Source of the DNA: Pseudanabaena sp. ABRG5-3 | GTDB lineage: Bacteria; Cyanobacteriota; Cyanobacteriia; Pseudanabaenales; Pseudanabaenaceae | Length of the DNA: 64,000 nucleotides | Assembly (NCBI RefSeq): GCF_003967015.1 | Contig: NZ_AP017560.1 | Span: forward strand, 1,426,001-1,490,000 | Reading direction: 5' to 3' | Part shown: piece after piece, positions 52,568 through 63,494 of the stretch | How the letters are laid out: each line of letters starts with the position of its first letter | How positions within the stretch are numbered: the stretch's first letter is position 1 | Program-made: the position numbers and the translations under genes | Notes under the pieces: generated by a model | The model's input: only the letters and a program-made list of their open reading frames with translations | Databases searched by the model: none | What the model was told of the DNA's origin: nothing

Positions 52568-52640
52568 TGGGCGCTGAGGGACTCGAACCCCCGACATTCT
52601 CGGTGTAAACGAGACGCTCTACCAACTGAGCTAAGCGCCC
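52568..52640 (-). tRNA. tRNA-Val(UAC)
   Basis: Minus strand: acceptor GGGCGCT / AGCGCCC, D arm AGCTCAGTTGGTAGAGC, anticodon loop TTTACAC with anticodon TAC, T arm GGGGGTTCGAGTCCCTC. 73 nt, CCA not encoded. A recombinase gene begins 258 bases from its 5' end. Confidence 0.96.
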
Positions 52641-52897
52641 TTTTTTGAGGCTATTTTTTTGACCTCAATTAATATAACAGATAGGGTTAGCTTTTTACTA
52701 GCATTTTGAAAAATAATTTTTTAATTGTTGCTGAAAGCCTTATATAACGAGGTTTTCTAGGTTTTTAAAAAGTTATAAAGAACGTAGAGCTAGTTTTCTG
52801 ATCTCAGTTATTATTCACATTGCCTTACACGGTTACAAAAATTTTCACAATCCAAAACCAACCCAAAAACTAACTATTGGTACGGAATTGGTACAGA

Positions 52898-54043
52898 ATG
52901 AAAACGCCAAAAGGCAGTGTAGCCATAGAAGAAAATGATAATCGTCTACGTTTAAGATGGTCTTGTGAGTCAAAAAGATACTGTCTGTCTCTAGGATTGC
53001 CCTATACAGATATAAATTTGAAAGTAGCAGAGCAAAAGGCTAGACAGATTGAGCTAGATATTTTATCTGGCAACTTTGACCCTACTCTAAACAAATACAG
53101 GATCAAGCAAGTAGCTGTCATTGCAAGTCCTGAAGTTATAAAACCCAGTCAAGAACTCTTGCTTCCTATATGGGATAAGTGGGTTAATAGCTTGTGTTTA
53201 CCAACTAGAACGCTTTGTTCCCACTACGCTAGAATTAGGCGCTACATTGAAAAAGCCGCTCCTTTGGCTACTGATGCTTCTTGGTATGAAGAAATCGTGA
53301 GTCTATCCCCTCGGATCTGGAATGACTCTTTAAGCTATTTGGTATCTTGTCTAAATTGGGCGATTTCTGAAAAGCTTGTATCTGACAATGCTTTTTCAAA
53401 GTTGAAGCGTAGAAAAGTATTAAAGAATCAGGTTAAACCTTTTAATCATGATGAGGTAAGGGCAATTGTTAACGCTTTTCGCAGTAATAAGTTTTGCCCA
53501 AAGTCATCAGCTTACAAACATAGTTTTTATGCTGATTACATTGAGTTTTTGTTTTTGACTGGTGTTAGACCTTCTGAAGCTATTGGGCTTCAGCGTCAAC
53601 ACGTAGACTTTATCCGTAATGAGATTGTCATTTGTTCAGTCTTAGCTAGAGGCGATCAAGGACAAACTGCGAGTAAACATCGTGTCCGCAAAGAAACAAA
53701 AACAGGATCTATTCGTTTTCTGACAATGACAGCTAGGTTAACTGAAATGCTGGAGATTAGATGTCGCAATCTTAATCCTGATGATTTGGTTTTTACTTCT
53801 CCAAATGGCAATGCAATTGATGATAATAACTTTACAAATAGACAATGGAAGGTCGTTTTAGCAGGACTAAACATTGAATACCGCAAGGTCTATACAACTA
53901 GACACACACTCGCATCAATGGCTTTAGAAGCTAATATGCCTATTACTTCTGTAGCCTATCTTTTGGGACATTCAGACACAACAATGATTATGCAAACGTA
54001 TGGACACGTTATAAATAGACCGTCTTTACCTGACTTTAGTTAA
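52898..54043 (+). CDS. Tyrosine recombinase / phage-type integrase
   Basis: Site-specific recombinase of 381 residues. The N-terminal arm-binding part (SKRYCLSLGLPYTDINLKVAEQKA) is of the DUF3596 type often seen in phage integrases. A core-binding SAM-like domain follows (about 85-180). The catalytic domain has Arg224 in LTGVRPSEA, Arg335 in YTTRHTLAS (Tyr replacing the first His, a frequent variant), LLGHSDTT, and the nucleophile Tyr368 in QTYGHV. I use the ATG at 52898; a TTG 21 bases upstream is less likely. Its position beside tRNA-Val suggests this tRNA is or was the attachment site. It opens the mobile element. Confidence 0.93.
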   Translation: MKTPKGSVAIEENDNRLRLRWSCESKRYCLSLGLPYTDINLKVAEQKARQIELDILSGNFDPTLNKYRIKQVAVIASPEVIKPSQELLLPIWDKWVNSLCLPTRTLCSHYARIRRYIEKAAPLATDASWYEEIVSLSPRIWNDSLSYLVSCLNWAISEKLVSDNAFSKLKRRKVLKNQVKPFNHDEVRAIVNAFRSNKFCPKSSAYKHSFYADYIEFLFLTGVRPSEAIGLQRQHVDFIRNEIVICSVLARGDQGQTASKHRVRKETKTGSIRFLTMTARLTEMLEIRCRNLNPDDLVFTSPNGNAIDDNNFTNRQWKVVLAGLNIEYRKVYTTRHTLASMALEANMPITSVAYLLGHSDTTMIMQTYGHVINRPSLPDFS

Positions 54044-54183
54044 ATCATTGCCAGCAAGACTCACTAGGTTTAATTCTGGTGAGTCTGTTATTTTATCGAT
54101 CACAAAGAAATTTACCGATCGCACTAAAAAACACAGTATAAAACCTTTCTCTCTTCTACGGTCTTACTTTTCTAAGTTGATTC

Positions 54184-54192
54184 TGTTATACT
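54184..54192 (+). promoter_or_regulatory. Extended -10 promoter for a predicted small RNA
   Basis: TGTTATACT matches the extended -10 (TGnTATAnT) at all but one position. Transcription would start near 54198, exactly at the first base of the closing stem of the predicted RNA. No good -35 box is present, as is tolerated with an extended -10. Confidence 0.5.
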
Positions 54193-54197
54193 GATTT

Positions 54198-54512
54198 CCG
54201 AAAGAGGGCAAGGCAAAGAGCAAAGCCCAACGGGTAAAAGTACAACCCTTAATACCGACCTGTTAAAAAGTTACAGGTGGCTGTCCTACAGCAAGTGGTA
54301 AGTAGTTCTTTCGGATCTCACGGTTGTTTATACACAACCATTCAAAGCTAAAGTAGCTGCGAACTAAGAGATCATTACAAAGTTTTTAGTATCAACTGCA
54401 ACATTTGAACATAGAAAAAATAGGAAAGATAAGTACAAAGTCTTCCTACAAAATCTATAACTATCAGAATAATAATCTAGAGGAACTATGCAATTACTGC
54501 GTAGTTTTTTGT
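54198..54512 (+). ncRNA. Predicted structured small RNA of the integrative element
   Basis: An 8-bp perfect closing stem, ccgaaaga (54198-54205) with tctttcgg (54307-54314), encloses four small hairpins. These are gggc/gccc (54206-54228), gggt/accc (54232-54248), acctgt/acaggt (54258-54278) and gctgt/acagc (54280-54292). A fifth, ggttgt/acaacc, lies at 54322-54339. A terminator (8-bp stem plus T-run) ends at 54512, and an extended -10 sits just upstream. No ORF covers the region. It matches no RNA class I can name. It may be shorter (to about 54340). Possible roles: replication or excision control of the element, or an antisense regulator. Confidence 0.5.
54484..54512 (+). terminator. Terminator-like hairpin ending the predicted RNA
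   Basis: aactatgc (54484-54491) pairs with gcgtagtt (54499-54506), one G-T, 7-base loop, followed by a T-run to 54512. It lies 11 bases before the stop codon of the convergent RHH gene. Confidence 0.65.
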
Positions 54513-54522
54513 TTTTTAGCTT

Positions 54523-54696
54523 CTAGTTTGCACTTATTTCTATGAGTTTCTTAGTGAGTATATCTCTAGCTATAGCAGCTTTTGGAACTAAAGTTTTACT
54601 TGCTAGATGTTCAAGTTTTTCTGTAAACTCTTCATCCAAATAAACACTAAGTAATTTTGCATTTCGTAATACTGATTTTCTGCCTTTTGCCATCAT
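54523..54696 (-). CDS. Small ribbon-helix-helix-like DNA-binding protein
   Basis: 57 residues: a basic start (MAKGRKSVLRNAK), the short strand LLSVYLDEEF, then two helices (TEKLEHLASK and KAAIARDILTKKLIE). This is the layout of CopG/Arc-type RHH repressors. The start is at 54696 or the adjacent ATG at 54693; aaagggtg lies upstream. Divergent from the helicase operon and convergent with the predicted RNA, it is well placed to repress the element's replication genes (inference from position). Confidence 0.75.
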   Translation of the reverse strand: MMAKGRKSVLRNAKLLSVYLDEEFTEKLEHLASKTLVPKAAIARDILTKKLIEISAN

Positions 54697-54859
54697 TAAA
54701 CACCCTTTTTCTTTTATATTTTTATTATATCATTTTATCATTAAGATATGTTAAAATATATATAGAAAGGCAAAAGAAAATCTTTTATTTAGTTGCTAAA
54801 AACTCCTTAAACTTACTGACTAATGAGTTTTGAAGAAAGCAATAAACCAACCAGTTAGC

Positions 54860-54991
54860 ATGATTTCATATGTCCAAAATCTCGTAACTAATGCAATTGT
54901 TAGCTCATGGATTCTTGTTTTACATATGCTGAAATGCTTGCTTAAAAACACTAAAGACTATCTCCAACTAATAAAGGAAACCATAAAATGA
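54860..54991 (+). CDS. 43-residue ORF coupled to the helicase gene
   Basis: MISYVQNLVTNAIVSSWILV...LQLIKETIK, 43 residues, with a hydrophobic stretch in the middle. Its TGA overlaps the ATG of the next gene by four bases (ATGA), suggesting translational coupling. An in-frame TTG at 54830 could extend it by ten residues. There is no strong ribosome site, so coding status is uncertain. No family recognised. Confidence 0.42.
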   Translation: MISYVQNLVTNAIVSSWILVLHMLKCLLKNTKDYLQLIKETIK

Positions 54992-56238
54992 CCGATACAG
55001 CACACAAATTAACCCCAAACCAAAAAACTATGAAAACTAAAACTACTCAAGCCAAAAGATCTACTAAATCTAACCCTACTAATATTATATCATTCTCCAA
55101 TAAAGCCAATAAAAATAAGGATAAAAAGACTCATCTTGACTTTAGTACATTACATGAAGTGCTACATGAACACTATTCTAAAAGGTTGAGTCTTGATGTC
55201 TGTAGCTCAAAGATTAGACTGGATGGTAAACTACTAGATTTTGCTGATATAAGATATAAAATTGAAACAGAGAGAAATATAATCGGGTCAAAAGACGATC
55301 TATTTAATCTAGTCTATAAAATTGCTAAAGTAAATCCTTACAATCCTATTGCTGAATACCTTGATACTGCTTACGAGAAATACTCTGAACAAGCTTGTGA
55401 GGATGTACTGGTCAAATTAGCTAAAAACATTCTCGGTCTTCAAAGCGATATTGAGGTTATGTATGTTGTTAAGTTCTTTGTTAGTGCTGTAGCAAGAGCA
55501 AAAGAAGCAGGTTGTAAGGTTGATACTGCTTTAGTTCTACAAGGTGGACAAGGTATAGGTAAGACCACTTTCTTTCAAGCTCTAGGCGGTGACTTCTTCT
55601 ATACCTTGTCACATAGCACTAGGGATAACCAAGCTCTTAAAGAACAGTACAAGTATTGGCTCATTGAGTGGGGTGAATTTGGAGCGAAGCTTACCACTAA
55701 CAAGATTGAAAGTCTCAAAAATGAAATGAGTAAAACAAAGGATGAAATTAAACATCTGTATGTCAATGAAAGTGAAACAAGATTGCGACATTTTGTATTT
55801 GTAGGGACTACCAACCAAGAACAGTTTCTTATAGATCCGACAGGTAACAGACGATTTTGGGTTGTTAAAGTAGACAAGAAAATAAATACTGACTATGTTA
55901 GAGAAAACCGTGATCTGATTTGGGCTTCAGCTATGAAACTTTATCAAGAGGGTTATCTTTGGTATCTAACAGATGAAGAGCAAGCTTTAAGCAATCAAAT
56001 CAACTCTAACTATGCAATTGATGATGTATGGGAGCCTCAAGTCGTAGGTTGGGCAGAAGCTCAAACTCAACCCTTTACTATCGCTGATGTGCTTACCAAA
56101 GCTCTTGGAATGCCTACAAGCAGACATAATAGAAGCCATGAATTGCGTGTCTCAAGGATTTTACAAGATGCTAGTTACAATAGAAAGCGTATTACTCCCA
56201 CTGGCATGAAAAGAGGCAACTACTGGCTGAAGATGTAG
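54988..56238 (+). CDS. VapE-family P-loop protein (SF3-like helicase/replication protein)
   Basis: 416 residues. The N-terminal 60 residues are Lys/Thr/Asn-rich and disordered. The VapE domain begins near 110, with Walker A GGQGIGKTTF at about 185-194, an acidic WLIEWGEF region (Walker B-like) and the sensor/arginine-finger segment FVGTTNQEQFLIDPTGNRRFW. Such proteins (virulence-associated E, phage/satellite replication ATPases) unwind DNA at phage and satellite origins. A good ribosome site (aaaggaaa) precedes the ATG. Together with the integrase and the RHH protein it forms the core of a satellite-like integrative element. Confidence 0.85.
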   Translation: MTDTAHKLTPNQKTMKTKTTQAKRSTKSNPTNIISFSNKANKNKDKKTHLDFSTLHEVLHEHYSKRLSLDVCSSKIRLDGKLLDFADIRYKIETERNIIGSKDDLFNLVYKIAKVNPYNPIAEYLDTAYEKYSEQACEDVLVKLAKNILGLQSDIEVMYVVKFFVSAVARAKEAGCKVDTALVLQGGQGIGKTTFFQALGGDFFYTLSHSTRDNQALKEQYKYWLIEWGEFGAKLTTNKIESLKNEMSKTKDEIKHLYVNESETRLRHFVFVGTTNQEQFLIDPTGNRRFWVVKVDKKINTDYVRENRDLIWASAMKLYQEGYLWYLTDEEQALSNQINSNYAIDDVWEPQVVGWAEAQTQPFTIADVLTKALGMPTSRHNRSHELRVSRILQDASYNRKRITPTGMKRGNYWLKM

Positions 56239-56652: not shown

Positions 56653-56654
56653 CT
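56624..56654 (-). terminator. Hairpin terminator at the end of the second RM operon
   Basis: agaaaatgaggg / cccctattttct with one mismatch, overlapping the hsdR stop codon. A-rich on the left, so it reads as a stem plus T-run on the minus strand. Confidence 0.65.
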
Positions 56655-59600
56655 ATTCTCCTGATCCTGAATAAGACTCATAAATATGCTGATAAACCTC
56701 TTGACATTTTTGATCGTAAATTTCTACTGTGTAACGTCTAGGAAGCTTATCTAGAATATCTTTGATAGTTATCTCGACTTCTGCTTTACTTTGTTGACGT
56801 TTGCGCCAATCTAGGACTAACTTGCTTTGTTTGAGCGTTTCTAATAATTCTTTAGCGACATCTTTAACATCTTGCCTTTCTTGATTAGTTAGCTCAAGCT
56901 CAGGCTTTGTTAGTAAATCAAAAACAACTAACTCTTCATCAGTTAGATTTTCTGCTAAATTCCTTTTTTCTTCTATGGTCAGTTCCTCATGGAATTTCAG
57001 CAATTCTCTAAAAAATATTTCTTGATTGCGAGAGCCTGAGTTATATTCATCAATCATTTTCTGAAACTTTTCTAGATAGTTGATCCGAGTTCTGTTAACT
57101 TGCACCATCTGTTGAAGATTTTGACTGATATTGCCTTTAAGCTTTTCTATAGCTGTTTGTTTGTATCCAGAATTAAATTTTGCTTTTAGGGCTTCAATAT
57201 CAAGCTTAAAGTCAATGTTTGTAATGTCAACTATCGGATTTTGACCACGAATAATAAACTTACCAGCAGTAATAGAGTCATCTAGTAGTTCATCGATTTC
57301 TTCTAGTACCTCAGATATATCCGTCTCTTCGATTTCTTGACGGATTTTATCAGCTAACCTCTCTAGCAAAAATCTAGTGTTAGCAAATTCATTTGCGGCT
57401 GTATCTGGCAAAACTGCTTTGTATAAGCTATTAACAGTGTTAACTAAAGAAAAGTAGTTTCGCTTCGATGCTTCATCTGCTAAAGCGTTTACGGCTTCAT
57501 CCCATAGTTTTGTTCTGCTAAATGGGTCTTGAGTTGTGTCTAGCTTGATGAGGTCAATATTTTTAGACTTACAAAATTCTAATGCTTCACCTATAGCAAC
57601 CCTAAGCTGATCTACTAGGGCTGATTTGTCCTTTACTGGTGTATCACCATCATCGATACCACCACCAGCGCTAGAGCCATAAATAGCTAGGGCATTTTGC
57701 AAGTCTCGAAATACTCCAATGTAATCGACTATCAAGCCGTTGACTTTGCCCTCATAGACTCGATTAGCTCTAGCGATGGTCTGCATAAGCGTATGGTTAC
57801 GCATTGGCTTATCAAGATAGATAGTGGAGCAGTTAGGCACATCAAAGCCTGTAATCCACATCGCACAGACAAAAACTATCCTCAGTGGATTGTTAGCATC
57901 TTTAAATTTTTCTTCTAAGGTTGGAGATTCATTAACTACTCGTTTTCTGTGAGGTGAGATGTCCAAGCCCTTTTTCTGAAATGCTTCTACTTCATTTTGA
58001 GATTGTGATATGACTACAGCCATATCGGTTTCTTCTATGTATTTAATTTGCTTGGATAATCTCTTAATCTCAAATTCGCTGATGTTTGGTTGAGCTAATT
58101 GGGTTTTGATGTTGTCTAGATATACTTGCCAGTGATGTTTTACTTTGTCGTACATCTTTACGGCTGTAAAGCGGTCTATGGCGATAAACATCGCTTTACC
58201 TTGATAGCCTCTACCTAAGAAGTGGGTTACTAGGTCAGATGCGATTTTTTCTAAGCGATCATCCCTCACAATTAGCTGATATTGCCTCGTACATTGACGC
58301 TCTAGCTTTTTCTCTGCCTCATCATCGAGCATTGCCGCTTCAACAATTTGCTCCATATCACCGTTAAGGTCTTCATTGGTTAACTGTAATTCGGGTATGC
58401 GATTTTCATAGAACAAAGGAACGGTTGCACCATCTTCTACAGATTGCTTAAAGTTGTAGATACTGACGTAATCGCCAAATACTTCTTTTGTTTTCTCTTC
58501 ACCAGAAATTAACGGTGTACCTGTAAAGCCTATAAATGCAGCGTTAGGGAGGGCATTACGCATATTTAGGGCAAATGTATCGTATTGACTTCTATGGGCT
58601 TCATCAGCCATGACAATGATGTTTGATCGGTCTGACAGTTTTGGGTAAGTAGTTCCTTTGTCCATTCTAAATTTCTGAATCAGCGTAAAGATGTAGCGAT
58701 GATCTTCTTGCAGTAGTTGTTTGAGATGTTCGGCACTGTCGGCTCTGACATTGGTTTCAGGCTCGGTAACTGCTCCTGAGTAAGCAAAGTTTTTATAGAT
58801 TTGCGAGTCTAAATCATCTCTGTCTGTGATGACAATAAATGTCCAGTTCCCTAATAGCTTGCGTAGGATTTTCTGAGCAAAGAAAACCATTGAGTAGCTC
58901 TTCCCTGAGCCTTGAGTATGCCAAAAAATGCCTAGCTTGCCTTGATTGTGACTAACTTGGCTTACGGCTTCGATCGCATTATTAACGCCTAGAAATTGAT
59001 GATTTTTAGCAATGATTTTTGAGGTTGTACCACCTGAATTATTAAAAATGGCAAAGTTTTCGATATAGTCGAGTAGTTTGTATGGGTCACAAGTGCCTCT
59101 AATCATGGTGTCTAGCGAGATCACCCCTTCTTCACCTTCACTATTGATCTTTTTCCATTCGCTAAAGTGGGAATACTCAGCCGTAAGACTACTGATTTTG
59201 CTCTTGCTGCCATTGGATAGAATAATTAAGGCGTTATACCAAAAAAGCTGTGGTATTGATTCTTTATAGTCTTTAAGGTTGTTTCTATAGGCATTTACTA
59301 GCCTTTGATGGTGTGCTTTGAGTTCTATAAACACCAACGGAATGCCATTAACAAAACCGATTAAGTCAGCCCTTCTAGTGTAAGTTTCACCTGTAATCCA
59401 AAATTGAGAAGCTAGAAAAAAATCGTTATTTGATGCGTTATTCCAGTCAATGATTTTGACTGTTTCCCTATTTTCAGCGTTATTTTCATCTCTAAAGCGA
59501 ACCTTTACCCCAGATTTTAATAGTTGATAAATTTCTTGATTGGCATTAACTAGACTTAGAGAGTTACGGCTATTTGTTATTTCTTCTATGGCAAGCTGTA

Positions 59601-59817
59601 AAGCTTCTTCAGGTAAATTTGGATTTAATCGCTGTAGTGATGGCAACAACTTAGGAACTAAGACAACCTCATCTTTGCTCTTTCTGCCTAGAGTGCTATT
59701 AATAGATCCTACAACCTCATGAAAGCAATTTGCAGTAGTCCAGCCTAATTGCTCAAATACTAGCATTGCTGCATTTTCTAGGGCTTCTTCTGAGTCAGGA
59801 TGAGGTGCTTTAGTCAT
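56653..59817 (-). CDS. hsdR: Type I RM restriction subunit (system 2)
   Basis: 1054 residues. Nuclease core: D151 in RRADLIGF and E165-L-K167 in VFIELKAHH. Motor: Walker A TQGSGKS (301-307), DEAH box (405-408), TGTPL, and QTIARANRVYEG as motif VI. The C-terminal helical part is charged and coiled-coil-like (ILDKLPRRYTVEIYDQKC). It resembles HsdR of the group with DEAH and a long C-terminal region, and differs from the 1123-residue HsdR of system 1 (DEGH), so the two systems are not duplicates. It is the last gene of the operon, 11 bases after the membrane-protein gene. Confidence 0.95.
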   Translation of the reverse strand: MTKAPHPDSEEALENAAMLVFEQLGWTTANCFHEVVGSINSTLGRKSKDEVVLVPKLLPSLQRLNPNLPEEALQLAIEEITNSRNSLSLVNANQEIYQLLKSGVKVRFRDENNAENRETVKIIDWNNASNNDFFLASQFWITGETYTRRADLIGFVNGIPLVFIELKAHHQRLVNAYRNNLKDYKESIPQLFWYNALIILSNGSKSKISSLTAEYSHFSEWKKINSEGEEGVISLDTMIRGTCDPYKLLDYIENFAIFNNSGGTTSKIIAKNHQFLGVNNAIEAVSQVSHNQGKLGIFWHTQGSGKSYSMVFFAQKILRKLLGNWTFIVITDRDDLDSQIYKNFAYSGAVTEPETNVRADSAEHLKQLLQEDHRYIFTLIQKFRMDKGTTYPKLSDRSNIIVMADEAHRSQYDTFALNMRNALPNAAFIGFTGTPLISGEEKTKEVFGDYVSIYNFKQSVEDGATVPLFYENRIPELQLTNEDLNGDMEQIVEAAMLDDEAEKKLERQCTRQYQLIVRDDRLEKIASDLVTHFLGRGYQGKAMFIAIDRFTAVKMYDKVKHHWQVYLDNIKTQLAQPNISEFEIKRLSKQIKYIEETDMAVVISQSQNEVEAFQKKGLDISPHRKRVVNESPTLEEKFKDANNPLRIVFVCAMWITGFDVPNCSTIYLDKPMRNHTLMQTIARANRVYEGKVNGLIVDYIGVFRDLQNALAIYGSSAGGGIDDGDTPVKDKSALVDQLRVAIGEALEFCKSKNIDLIKLDTTQDPFSRTKLWDEAVNALADEASKRNYFSLVNTVNSLYKAVLPDTAANEFANTRFLLERLADKIRQEIEETDISEVLEEIDELLDDSITAGKFIIRGQNPIVDITNIDFKLDIEALKAKFNSGYKQTAIEKLKGNISQNLQQMVQVNRTRINYLEKFQKMIDEYNSGSRNQEIFFRELLKFHEELTIEEKRNLAENLTDEELVVFDLLTKPELELTNQERQDVKDVAKELLETLKQSKLVLDWRKRQQSKAEVEITIKDILDKLPRRYTVEIYDQKCQEVYQHIYESYSGSGE

Positions 59818-60669: not shown

Positions 60670-61932
60670 CTATGCTGCTATTTCTAAGGTTTCAATATCA
60701 AGGTTTTCTACGTCAATTTCGCCTGAGATTAGTTTAGGTAATAGTAAGTCACGGGTTTTGCGGAGATTGATGTTTTTGTTTTGAAGATTTTGCTTCTGTT
60801 GCAGCATTTCAACAACAATATTATGATATTTATCTAATAAGAATTTGTCAGGTATTACAATATCAGCATTTTTGAAGTCACTAGAGTTAACGGCTGGATA
60901 AGCTGAACCAGTTGCATTATTAGTTAAATAATCTACAAAGCTATCTGTAGTTAAAGCCTTATATAGATATGTATACGGTGCTTTTCTAGCAGTAATTACC
61001 GCAAAACCAGTTGATACTATTAAATTGTCTGACGGATTCAAAATGAGGCTATATGATTTTCGATTAGGTCTTACAGTTGCCCATATAATATCGCCATGTT
61101 TTACGATACGTCTTGCTCGACTTGGAGCATTAGCAAAATCAATTGTTTCAACTTTATCTATTTGTCCAGTTGAAACGGAAGATATATCAATATAGTTGAT
61201 TTCATCAGGAGCATTAGTAGCTTTTAAACTCAAACTATTAATTGATGCAATATCTCCTAACTTCTTAATCTTCCACCCTTCAGGAATTAACCCCAACTCA
61301 GACTCAACCATTTTGACATTTTCATGATCAGGAAAGCGGAAATTAACAAACCACTCACGATAGAGCATCTGTGCCATTTCTTCTAATATCTTAATGCGTC
61401 TAGTGTTGTTTTCGATTAGGTCGTCATAAACTGAAAGAATAGAAGCAATTTTGCGTTGGGTTGGTAATTCATGAACTTCTAATTCAATATTTTCAAAACT
61501 GCTTTTATTGACATTTTCTCGACCAGAACTAGAACCTGCATTTAGTTGTTTTAAAGTAGGAAGATATGTTCTTACTAAGTAATAAGTGTAAATCGGGTCA
61601 TATTGAGAAATATCAACTGCAATACTGTTCAACTGCTGATTAGTAAAACAAATTTGACTTGTAAGACACATTTTTTTTCCAATTGTGCCAATACAAACAA
61701 CACAGATTGAATTTTTGGGTAATGCTTTTATTTTTTGATACTTATAACCTTCATCTGATAGCGTCATCTCGGTTTTGAAAACATATCTTTGGTCTTCAGA
61801 AATATCAGATGGTTTAATGAAAAGATACTTTCCACCAAAATAATCTTGGTTAGCAGTTGGTGGTGTTGTGCCTGTAATGACCTTTCCTAAGTCTTTTATT
61901 TTAATTGTTTGTGTCAGTAATATTTTTTTCAT
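60670..61932 (-). CDS. hsdS: Type I RM specificity subunit (system 2)
   Basis: 420 residues, two TRDs. TRD1 begins KIKDLGKVITGTTPPTANQDYFGG, with IKPSDI and SSSGRENVNKSSFENIEL; its helical spacer is LPTQRKIASILSVYDDLIENNTRRIKILEEM. TRD2 begins WKIKKLGDIASINS and ends before LLDKYHNIVVEMLQQKQNLQ, then LLPKLISGEIDV. It confers a bipartite recognition sequence that cannot be read from the protein. It starts 2 bases after the hsdM stop. No TRD resemblance to the HsdS of system 1 beyond general motifs. Confidence 0.93.
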   Translation of the reverse strand: MKKILLTQTIKIKDLGKVITGTTPPTANQDYFGGKYLFIKPSDISEDQRYVFKTEMTLSDEGYKYQKIKALPKNSICVVCIGTIGKKMCLTSQICFTNQQLNSIAVDISQYDPIYTYYLVRTYLPTLKQLNAGSSSGRENVNKSSFENIELEVHELPTQRKIASILSVYDDLIENNTRRIKILEEMAQMLYREWFVNFRFPDHENVKMVESELGLIPEGWKIKKLGDIASINSLSLKATNAPDEINYIDISSVSTGQIDKVETIDFANAPSRARRIVKHGDIIWATVRPNRKSYSLILNPSDNLIVSTGFAVITARKAPYTYLYKALTTDSFVDYLTNNATGSAYPAVNSSDFKNADIVIPDKFLLDKYHNIVVEMLQQKQNLQNKNINLRKTRDLLLPKLISGEIDVENLDIETLEIAA

Positions 61933-61934
61933 AT

Positions 61935-63494
61935 TTAAATACTCTCTAACAATAAACTTACATTCTCAGAAATTCTGCTTTCTAACTCTCTAGCCTCACT
62001 ATTCAAAACCTCTAACTCCTCATTTAACTCTTCCAACCTCTCAGAAAAAACAAAATCATCAACCTCTCTTTCTGCTACTCCCACATATCTACCAGCATTC
62101 AAACTCCATCCCTGAGCCTCAATCTCATCAATTGTTGCAACCTTACACAAACCAGCAATATCAACATAAGCATTATCTGGAAACATCTCATCTAGAAAAA
62201 CCTGACTACCATTAATAGTCTCAACCGCATCACCCCGATATAACCTAACAATATTTGCTAAATGCTCGATTTGGTCTGCTTCAAACTCTCGATGAGCGCG
62301 ATCAACCTGTTTATAAACTTGCCTAGCATCAATAAATAAAACCTTATTCTTGCGGATAGTGCCAACTTTCCCCTTATCCAAAAACCACAATGTACAAGGC
62401 AAAGTCACCGTATAGAAAAAATTAGAGCCAACAGCAACCATGACATCAACAGCACCAGATTGAATTAGCTTCTTGCGAATCTCTAGCTCAGACCCTCTAG
62501 CATCACTAGCCGAATTTGCCATAACAAACCCAGCCCGACCTTTAGGACTCAACGCACTATAAAAATAATGAATCCATAGGTAGTTAGCATTGTCAGCTTT
62601 TGGCAGTCCAAACGCCTTAAATCTTGGGTCACTCTCGATTCTATCTTTATCGACTTTACCCACATTAAAAGGCGGATTAGCCATCACAAAGTCAAACTTA
62701 CCAACGCTCTCATGAATATCATCGTAATAGCTATTACCCTCCTTGATATCACCAGACAGACCATGTACTGCTAAGTTCATGTGACAAAGCCGCACAGTCT
62801 CATCTACCTTCTCTTGACCGTAGATACTGATTTCTGCATTAGGTTTCTTCTTATGCCTTTCGACAAAAAAAGCGCTTTGCACAAACATACCGCCCGAACC
62901 ACAGGCAGGGTCAAAAATTCGACCATGAAAAGGTTCGATGATTTCCACAATTAGCTTTACTACTGAGATAGGCGTAAAGAACTCTCCCCCTTTTTGCCCC
63001 TCACTCATGGCAAACTTACCTAAGAAATATTCATAGATTTTGCCAAAAGCATCACCCTCTAAGTCAGTCCCCATATCAATGCTGCTAAACTTTTTCAGAA
63101 GCTCCACTAGCAAATGATTTTCTAGCTGATTGTATGTTTTCGGTAAGACATTATTTAGAGCAGGATTATCAAGCTCAATCGCTCTCATTGCCTCATTAAT
63201 GGCTTTACCTATATCTTCACCTTCAGGCAAAGCTAACAATCTCGAAAACCTTGCTGCATCAGGTAAGTACATCACCCCCTTAGCTTGATAGTCAGCCTTA
63301 GTAATAGCCCTTCTACCGCTACCCTTACTTTTTAACTCTTCTTCTACCTTAGAAAACTTCCAGTCAGCATACCTTAAAAAAATAAGCCCTAAGACTGGTA
63401 CGGAATATTCTGATGACTTGAGCTTAGAGTTTGCTCTGAGTTCATCTGCTGCATCCCATAAACGTTTTTCTAAATCAGTTGTGTTAGCTGCCAT
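61935..63494 (-). CDS. hsdM: Type I RM methyltransferase subunit (system 2)
   Basis: 519 residues. N-terminal helical domain ([35 protein letters not shown]), [12 protein letters not shown] motif DPACGSGG (195-202) and catalytic NPPF (273-276). The C-terminal 60 residues form a coiled coil ([24 protein letters not shown]) that contacts HsdS. First gene of the operon; its start ATG is at 63494 and its promoter should lie in 63495-63700. Belongs to the same broad family as the hsdM of system 1, but to a different subgroup. Confidence 0.95.

Follow-up and report, generated by a model that had tools for sequence, protein, structure and literature searches.

The window, that is, the whole stretch of DNA analyzed, comprises 64,000 nt of Pseudanabaena sp. 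ABRG5-3 (NZ_AP017560.1, positions 1,426,001 to 1,490,000, forward strand). It contains an island at a tRNA-Val gene with an integrase, an RNA, an RHH gene, a VapE-domain protein, a type I restriction system and one 269-aa ORF. G-numbers designate the genome or phage records compared, G000 being the genome of the window, and L-numbers designate loci. The features of the island are the following (window coordinates).

52568-52640, minus strand: tRNA-Val (TAC), the integration target (ARAGORN)
52596-52684: left attachment repeat; the right copy, L061:91-178, corresponds to window 64091-64178, just past the window end
52877-54043, plus strand: tyrosine integrase (Arm-DNA-bind_2 and Phage_integrase; Pfam)
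54057-54086, plus strand: terminator-like hairpin 3' of the integrase (terminator scan)
54145-54168, plus strand: copy of a phage motif, conserved 5' of the RNA in three islands (motif scan)
54184-54192, plus strand: extended -10, TGTTATACT (sequence; fixed positions conserved)
54198-54314, plus strand: RNA domain 1, an 8-bp closing stem, hairpins P2 and P3 and a three-way branch P4/P4a/P4b (folding, covariation)
54315-54373, plus strand: RNA domain 2, a stem ATCTC/GAGAT closing two hairpins, where the part shared with the phage ends (alignment)
54374-54479, plus strand: third segment, islands only (blastn)
54480-54510, plus strand: intrinsic terminator of the RNA, a stem followed by a T run (terminator scan)
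54526-54696, minus strand: convergent gene for a 57-aa RHH (CopG-like) protein, a weak assignment from the RHH_1 match of a homologue
54988-56238, plus strand: VapE-domain replication protein (PF05272, E 7.5e-61)
56653-59817, minus strand: type I restriction subunit HsdR, cargo (Pfam/PADLOC)
60670-61932, minus strand: HsdS, cargo (Pfam/PADLOC)
61935-63494, minus strand: HsdM, cargo (Pfam/PADLOC)

The direct repeats that flank the island share 96.6% identity over 89 bp, and on this basis the carrier of the RNA is an integrative element, as had been proposed in a sequence-only reading of this DNA. The location of the RNA between an integrase and a VapE-type gene, also claimed there, agrees with the Pfam assignments. 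The convergent RHH gene of that reading does exist as a small convergent gene, but its assignment is weak: the product has no Pfam match at E 0.001, and its homologue at L005 matches RHH_1 with an E-value of 0.0023, below the curated cut-off. Six ORFs of the island exceed 100 aa, i.e. those of the integrase, VapE, HsdR, HsdS and HsdM and the 269-aa ORF, which had no match in Pfam or PADLOC. As in satellites, the island combines an integrase, attachment repeats and a replication gene, and no structural genes were found in it by Pfam and PADLOC. Related islands with flanking repeats are present in G002, G005, G010 and G020, with measured sizes of about 6.7-11.6 kb, and a hairpin similar to that located 3' of the integrase occurs in G005 and G021, the terminator scan listing none at the G002 locus. 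The replication gene varies among the islands, being of the VapE-domain type in the window and in G002 and encoding in G005 an 893-aa protein with no Pfam match at E 0.01. Because the RNA is kept while the adjoining replication gene differs, it has no fixed link to VapE.

The sequence-only reading had placed a promoter directly in front of the RNA. The extended -10 is present, the fixed bases of TGnTAnnnT are retained in three islands, and the +1 expected from the usual spacing (~54199) agrees with the start of the closing stem; a -35 hexamer is absent, however, and the sigma-70 scan did not list a promoter at 54184-54192. The predicted promoter is therefore based on the extended -10 and is the weakest part of the observation. 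The terminator claimed for the end of the unit was confirmed, and the region 53900-55100 contains two terminator-like sites versus 0.5 expected. The proposed multibranched fold with four hairpins was also recovered: the closing stem, formed by CCGAAAGA (54198-54205) pairing with TCTTTCGG (54307-54314), encloses three branches with four terminal hairpins, and the minimum free energy of 54198-54316, -38.7 kcal/mol, corresponds to a z-score of -4.17 and was not reached by any of 200 shuffled sequences. The z-score was -3.20 for 54198-54314 and -4.41 for the whole 318-nt unit (0 of 100 shuffles as low). Domain 2, which follows the closing stem, contains two more hairpins.

When Rfam 15 (4227 families) was searched at the gathering threshold, no family was found over the RNA of the window or over the phage copy described below, in agreement with the earlier statement that the RNA matches no known class; a permissive search gave sau-13 (E 0.49) and a microRNA model (E 3.1), both far under their cut-offs. 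None of the titles and abstract openings surveyed in the literature, in which subscription papers are thinly represented, describes the RNA, and a term search of the main text of PMC9837993 returned neither "non-coding" nor "noncoding".

A blastn search detected the RNA in G000, G002 and G005, i.e. in 3 of 97 genomes, and the G002 and G005 homologues hold the same position in their islands as the RNA of the window. With a covariance model built from these three copies (R1), strong matches were obtained in 3 of 26 genomes of the genus (at E 1, 9 of the 26 had a match, which was weak in six), in 3 of 388 genomes of the class, and, at E 0.01, in 5 of 38 genomes of the order, two of which were rejected as weak. 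Homologues beside integrases thus exist in G002 and G005, and with the window's own copy these make up the strong matches in the genus. Among the weak R1 matches, those in G008, G017, G019 and G020 (23-28 bits) are homologous to each other and protein-coding in appearance, and three equal-scoring copies of an element in G000 (18.2 bits, one inspected) are repeat-like; all were judged by eye to be chance matches. The G022 match (20.2 bits) was also judged to be due to chance, and that of G003 (L056:1501-1600, 22.8 bits) is similar to the P4 branch but lies inside an intergenic terminator-like hairpin and is probably due to chance as well. As these weak chance matches show, the R1 E-values are optimistic. 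The islands of G010, G004 and G020, whose integrases are 80-83% identical, gave no R1 match. The G021 island (integrase 91% identical) had none at the place of the RNA, where the fold z-score was -1.87, and it was not counted; a promoter-like site and hairpins are located there (approximately L032:2305-2470), and this stretch is possibly a divergent analogue of the RNA.

The RNA was not found by blastn in the plasmid and phage collections. A pattern scan of IMG/VR returned four contigs, one of which, IMGVR_UViG_3300034073_002480 (G388), matches R1 from end to end with 118.7 bits. The other three were discarded (no R1 match in L069 and L070, 8.7 bits in L072), as were the other 28 contigs obtained with a looser pattern, which reached at best 17.0 bits, and L116, to which R1 gave no match. 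Three further patterns revealed no other carrier in IMG/VR, an integrase scan of the same collection found no relative, and the seven contigs matching the promoter-side box had no model match and turned out to be homologous stretches of one locus.

G388 is a 138.7-kb tailed-phage record with terminase, tape-measure and DNA polymerase genes. It is distantly related to Pam2 and PA-SR01, which are Pseudanabaena phages according to their records: 30 of its 142 mechanically called ORFs of at least 100 aa match either of them (1e-5), and when its terminase was compared with 1712 matching phage records, Pam2 was listed first and PA-SR01 sixth, each with 31% identity. Pam2 and PA-SR01 lack the RNA (best R1 score 13.5 bits), and therefore this phage group does not need it. 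Compared with that of G002, the phage copy shows 95% identity in the first 139 nt and 97% in the final 35 nt; the similarity starts at the first base of the closing stem and stops with domain 2, the flanks being different. The module so delimited, with a length of 176 nt (window) or 213 nt (phage), is the sole long sequence found in common between phage and islands. Downstream of it no common sequence was detected; the third segment and the terminator, 85% identical in G002 and 78% in G005, gave nothing against the phage by blastn at E 0.05. The phage module is preceded by a promoter-like TTGCTA-17-TATATT (L080:10566-10538) whose +1 adjoins the stem, although such sites are barely enriched in this phage stretch (26 found versus 19.5 expected, sd 4.7). 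It is followed on the same strand by ORFs of 35, 134 and 232 aa, with no terminator-like site on this strand before the 232-aa gene, the next one being at L080:8687-8666.

At the protein level, no homologue of the integrase or of VapE was found in G388, no protein was shared between its ORFs of at least 100 aa and the three islands, and the integrase, VapE and RHH sequences shared none with 1660 shorter phage frames. A search with the phage helicase gave, besides itself, only short weak matches, and the 814-aa and 232-aa phage proteins had no match in the phage collection. The RNA is located at 125.4 kb and the terminase gene at 3.7-5.4 kb of the record, about 17 kb apart if the genome is circular; the first and last 40 bases of the record differ. 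Genes for a Thg1 (tRNA-His guanylyltransferase, L080:3985-4671) and a tRNA nucleotidyltransferase (L080:2639-3532) lie 6-8 kb from the RNA, and no tRNA was detected in the four stretches of G388 scanned.

When 20 kb of G388 were searched against the 26 genomes of the genus, matches were obtained in five of them: the RNA itself in G000 and G002, a gene homologue in G018, and short matches in G015 and G012. The latter two matches lie in CRISPR spacers and measure 41 nt with 88% identity in G012 (array L129:2836-3197) and 38 nt with 87% identity in G015 (array L130:2008-3293). The G018 match is a DNA homologue (71-76%) of the 232-aa gene that is divided between two contig ends, and no match to the phage terminase was found in G018. 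With another 20 kb of the phage, a single match (71% over 323 bases, in G004) and no spacer match were obtained in the 26 genomes, in which a 547-aa protein of the structural region of the phage also lacked any match. Taken together, these results indicate that the RNA is in all probability shared with a Pseudanabaena phage. The presence of a close copy in a phage linked to the host genus lends indirect support to the proposal that the RNA could act against a competing phage.

The conservation of the structure was analyzed on a four-copy alignment (window, G002, G005 and phage), which was fitted to R1 and hence leans to the structure. Standard pairs account for 97.7% of its 131 pair cells, 5 of 33 pairs show double changes, and covariation scores 0.258 versus 0.151 in shuffled alignments, none of these three values being reached in 500 shuffles; a weak control, the number of further pair types (12 versus 9.5), was reached in 23 of 500. 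Slid registers were 34-44% paired, far below the true register. In a MAFFT alignment of three copies, 7 of 33 pairs had changed on both sides, and four pairs were broken or gapped in G005. Compensatory changes in the closing stem, required by the sequence-only reading, do occur; G005 has there another 8-bp sequence, TAGAGAAA/TTTCTCTA. The z-scores of domain 1 in the four copies were -3.2, -3.3, -4.4 and -3.3, and those of domain 2 were -3.15 (window), -2.35 (G002), -1.62 (phage) and -2.97 (G005); the hand-chosen helices of domain 2 are fully paired in all four, the first hairpin with differing sequences. The stems vary, and the junctions and loops are mostly constant across copies, the unpaired parts being among the most conserved. 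These compensatory changes across homologues, observed in four sequences of which three belong to one genus, argue that the RNA is structured, and we consider the two-domain module at 54198-54373 almost certainly a real structured RNA.

Domain 1 folds on its opposite strand as well (z from -1.64 to -3.58), so folding energy alone cannot pick the strand. The G-U cells do pick it: 11 of 128 paired cells in the four-copy alignment are G-U and would become A-C mismatches on the other strand. The plus strand is thus very likely the working strand of the module.

A second link between phage and islands is an interspersed motif. TCTTCTACGG occurs 26 times in G388 versus 0.18 expected from trinucleotides, and CTTCTAYGG is present in 57 exact copies, 28 and 29 on the two strands, in both coding and non-coding DNA. 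The interspersed motif of G388, TCTCTTCTAYGGT, was noted in loci L080, L083, L112-L115, L081 and L082; Pam2 and PA-SR01 iterate another motif, GGCAGAAAAG / CTTTTCTGCC, in 14 and 9 copies. A first pattern for a phage promoter class (22 in G388 versus 4.0 expected) proved to be this interspersed motif and was discarded as a promoter. With a weight matrix derived from the 57 sites and a site cut-off of 11 bits, 117 sites were scored in G388, the training genome, one each in Pam2 and PA-SR01, and two in 112 kb of non-island host DNA, both of 11.1 bits. The window island has five sites, with scores of 16.5 to 23.8, one of them 5' of the RNA, one in the integrase gene and three in hsdR, and coding coincidence may lie behind some of them. 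Flanks included, the other islands have two (G002), three (G005), four (G021), none (G010 and G004) and one (G020, 11.3 bits). The non-coding site 5' of the RNA has the top score in G002 and G005 and the second in the window; no exact motif site was listed within 1 kb of the phage's RNA. The 12-mer TTCTTCTAYGGT was found 87 times in the 26 genomes, four of these in the islands of G000, G002, G005 and G021, versus 65 for the reversed control, and hence it is not abundant in the host genomes as a whole.

In this comparison one module stands where a transcript is predicted to begin in two settings, the satellite-like tRNA islands and a large tailed phage associated with the genus, which suggests that island and virus may interact through the RNA, and we read it as a putative new structured RNA of phages and satellites. 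As a binding surface it fits better than as an antisense RNA, because the constant junctions and loops stand beside varying stems. These constant parts, the location at the predicted start of transcription and the absence of antisense targets downstream in the islands favor an RNA that probably works by protein binding. The module would bind a protein, either phage-encoded or the host RNA polymerase, through its near-constant loops and junctions. The phage copy would form the 5' leader of a small operon, that of the 35-, 134- and 232-aa ORFs, and the island copies a free-standing RNA of ~310 nt ended by its own terminator. In an infected cell the island RNA might act in trans as a decoy or a cue, competing for or sensing a factor needed by the phage RNA, so that the phage operon would be damped or the island switched on. 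Since phage and islands share RNA and motif and no common protein was found, our first choice is that the RNA competes for or senses a factor of the phage or the host, and a decoy or cue in trans remains a tentative reading. tRNA-integrated satellites such as P4-like elements and PICI combine an integrase at a tRNA gene, a small regulator, a replication protein and defence cargo between flanking repeats. The Pseudanabaena islands share this layout, their candidate helper being tied to them by RNA, motif and host only. It is somewhat doubtful that they are satellites or antagonists of PA-SR01-like phages whose copy of a phage RNA recruits or sequesters the same factor and in which TCTTCTAYGG, iterated across the phage genome, would lead the phage machinery to treat the DNA of the island like that of the phage. 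The evidence that connects the phage with the islands is genomic (RNA, motif and host) and circumstantial.

Close behind the decoy or cue ranks a cis-acting leader, in which the RNA would control its own transcript: the terminator at 54480-54510 would stop it early, and a ligand, a protein or a modified RNA polymerase, as modeled on HK022 put, would let transcription pass this terminator, cross the RHH antisense region and enter vapE. In the phage the same module would lead into an operon. We consider this model fairly unlikely. In each of the three islands and in the phage the module is followed by a gene on its strand (vapE, the 893-aa protein and the phage ORFs), a terminator separates the RNA from the replication gene in all three islands, the phage is free of same-strand terminator-like sites up to the 232-aa gene, and the module starts at the predicted +1; however, a convergent RHH gene intervenes between terminator and vapE, and no sequence common to phage and islands was detected downstream of the module. 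The P4 CI and P1 C4 immunity RNAs likewise precede the genes of an operon, in a satellite and in a phage, but the RNA analyzed here has no Rfam match and no complementarity above that of shuffles downstream in the islands. An antisense regulator of this kind, or like SviR of PLE, whose loops would pair with island, phage or host mRNA leaders, is unlikely. Leader-complementary RNAs are known in P1, P7, N15, P4 and phiR73, according to PMC7567579, and downstream of the phage copy lies a 14-nt match to it (2 G-U) that none of 50 mononucleotide shuffles equaled; nevertheless, complementarity downstream in the islands was no better than in shuffles in three of three cases (0.58, 0.32 and 0.72 of 50), and conservation is high in the unpaired parts. 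In Vibrio, PLE satellites have an abundant ncRNA with homology to leaders (PMC7567579), and SviR is reported to bind phage transcripts (PMC12987554). The SviR/IIR transcript of PLE in Vibrio cholerae resembles the island RNA in being a satellite ncRNA, and an action of SviR on the expression of the phage has been proposed (PMC7567579, PMC12987554); it differs in that it is located between inverted repeats and shows antisense homology to leaders, whereas the Pseudanabaena RNA is carried by the phage itself and its islands gave no antisense target downstream.

It is quite unlikely that the module is a phage structural RNA, ornate like GOLLD and ROOL or used in packaging, that the islands acquired for their own propagation. 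Its intricate fold and its occurrence in a tailed phage at 6-8 kb from the Thg1 and tRNA nucleotidyltransferase genes would agree with such a role, but it matches no Rfam family, is missing from Pam2 and PA-SR01, and is far from the terminase gene on the record. GOLLD and ROOL are also structured phage ncRNAs of unsettled role, and they are much longer than the module, which at 176/213 nt matches no family model. That the structure is a folded single-stranded DNA signal, a replication or recombination site, is highly improbable: the interval between integrase and replication genes of a mobile element, the conserved structure and the folding of the opposite strand of domain 1 (z -1.6 to -3.6) are as expected for such a site, but the module begins at a predicted transcript start in both contexts, a terminator ends the island copies, the G-U pairs favor the transcribed strand, and the module persists in a phage record that yielded no homologue of the integrase or of VapE.

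Whichever way the candidate RNA works, its presence in a phage and in islands of its likely host would offer a handle on satellite-phage recognition, the exchanged unit being delimited by comparison, supported by covariation and outside Rfam, in a genus with isolated phages. A 277-aa protein for whose G002 copy Pfam and PADLOC gave no match is encoded near the islands of G002 (L004:857-1690) and G021 (L032:6838-7671) and in G018 (L128:8047-8880), the three sequences being very alike by eye, and the G018 copy adjoins the homologue of the 232-aa phage gene.
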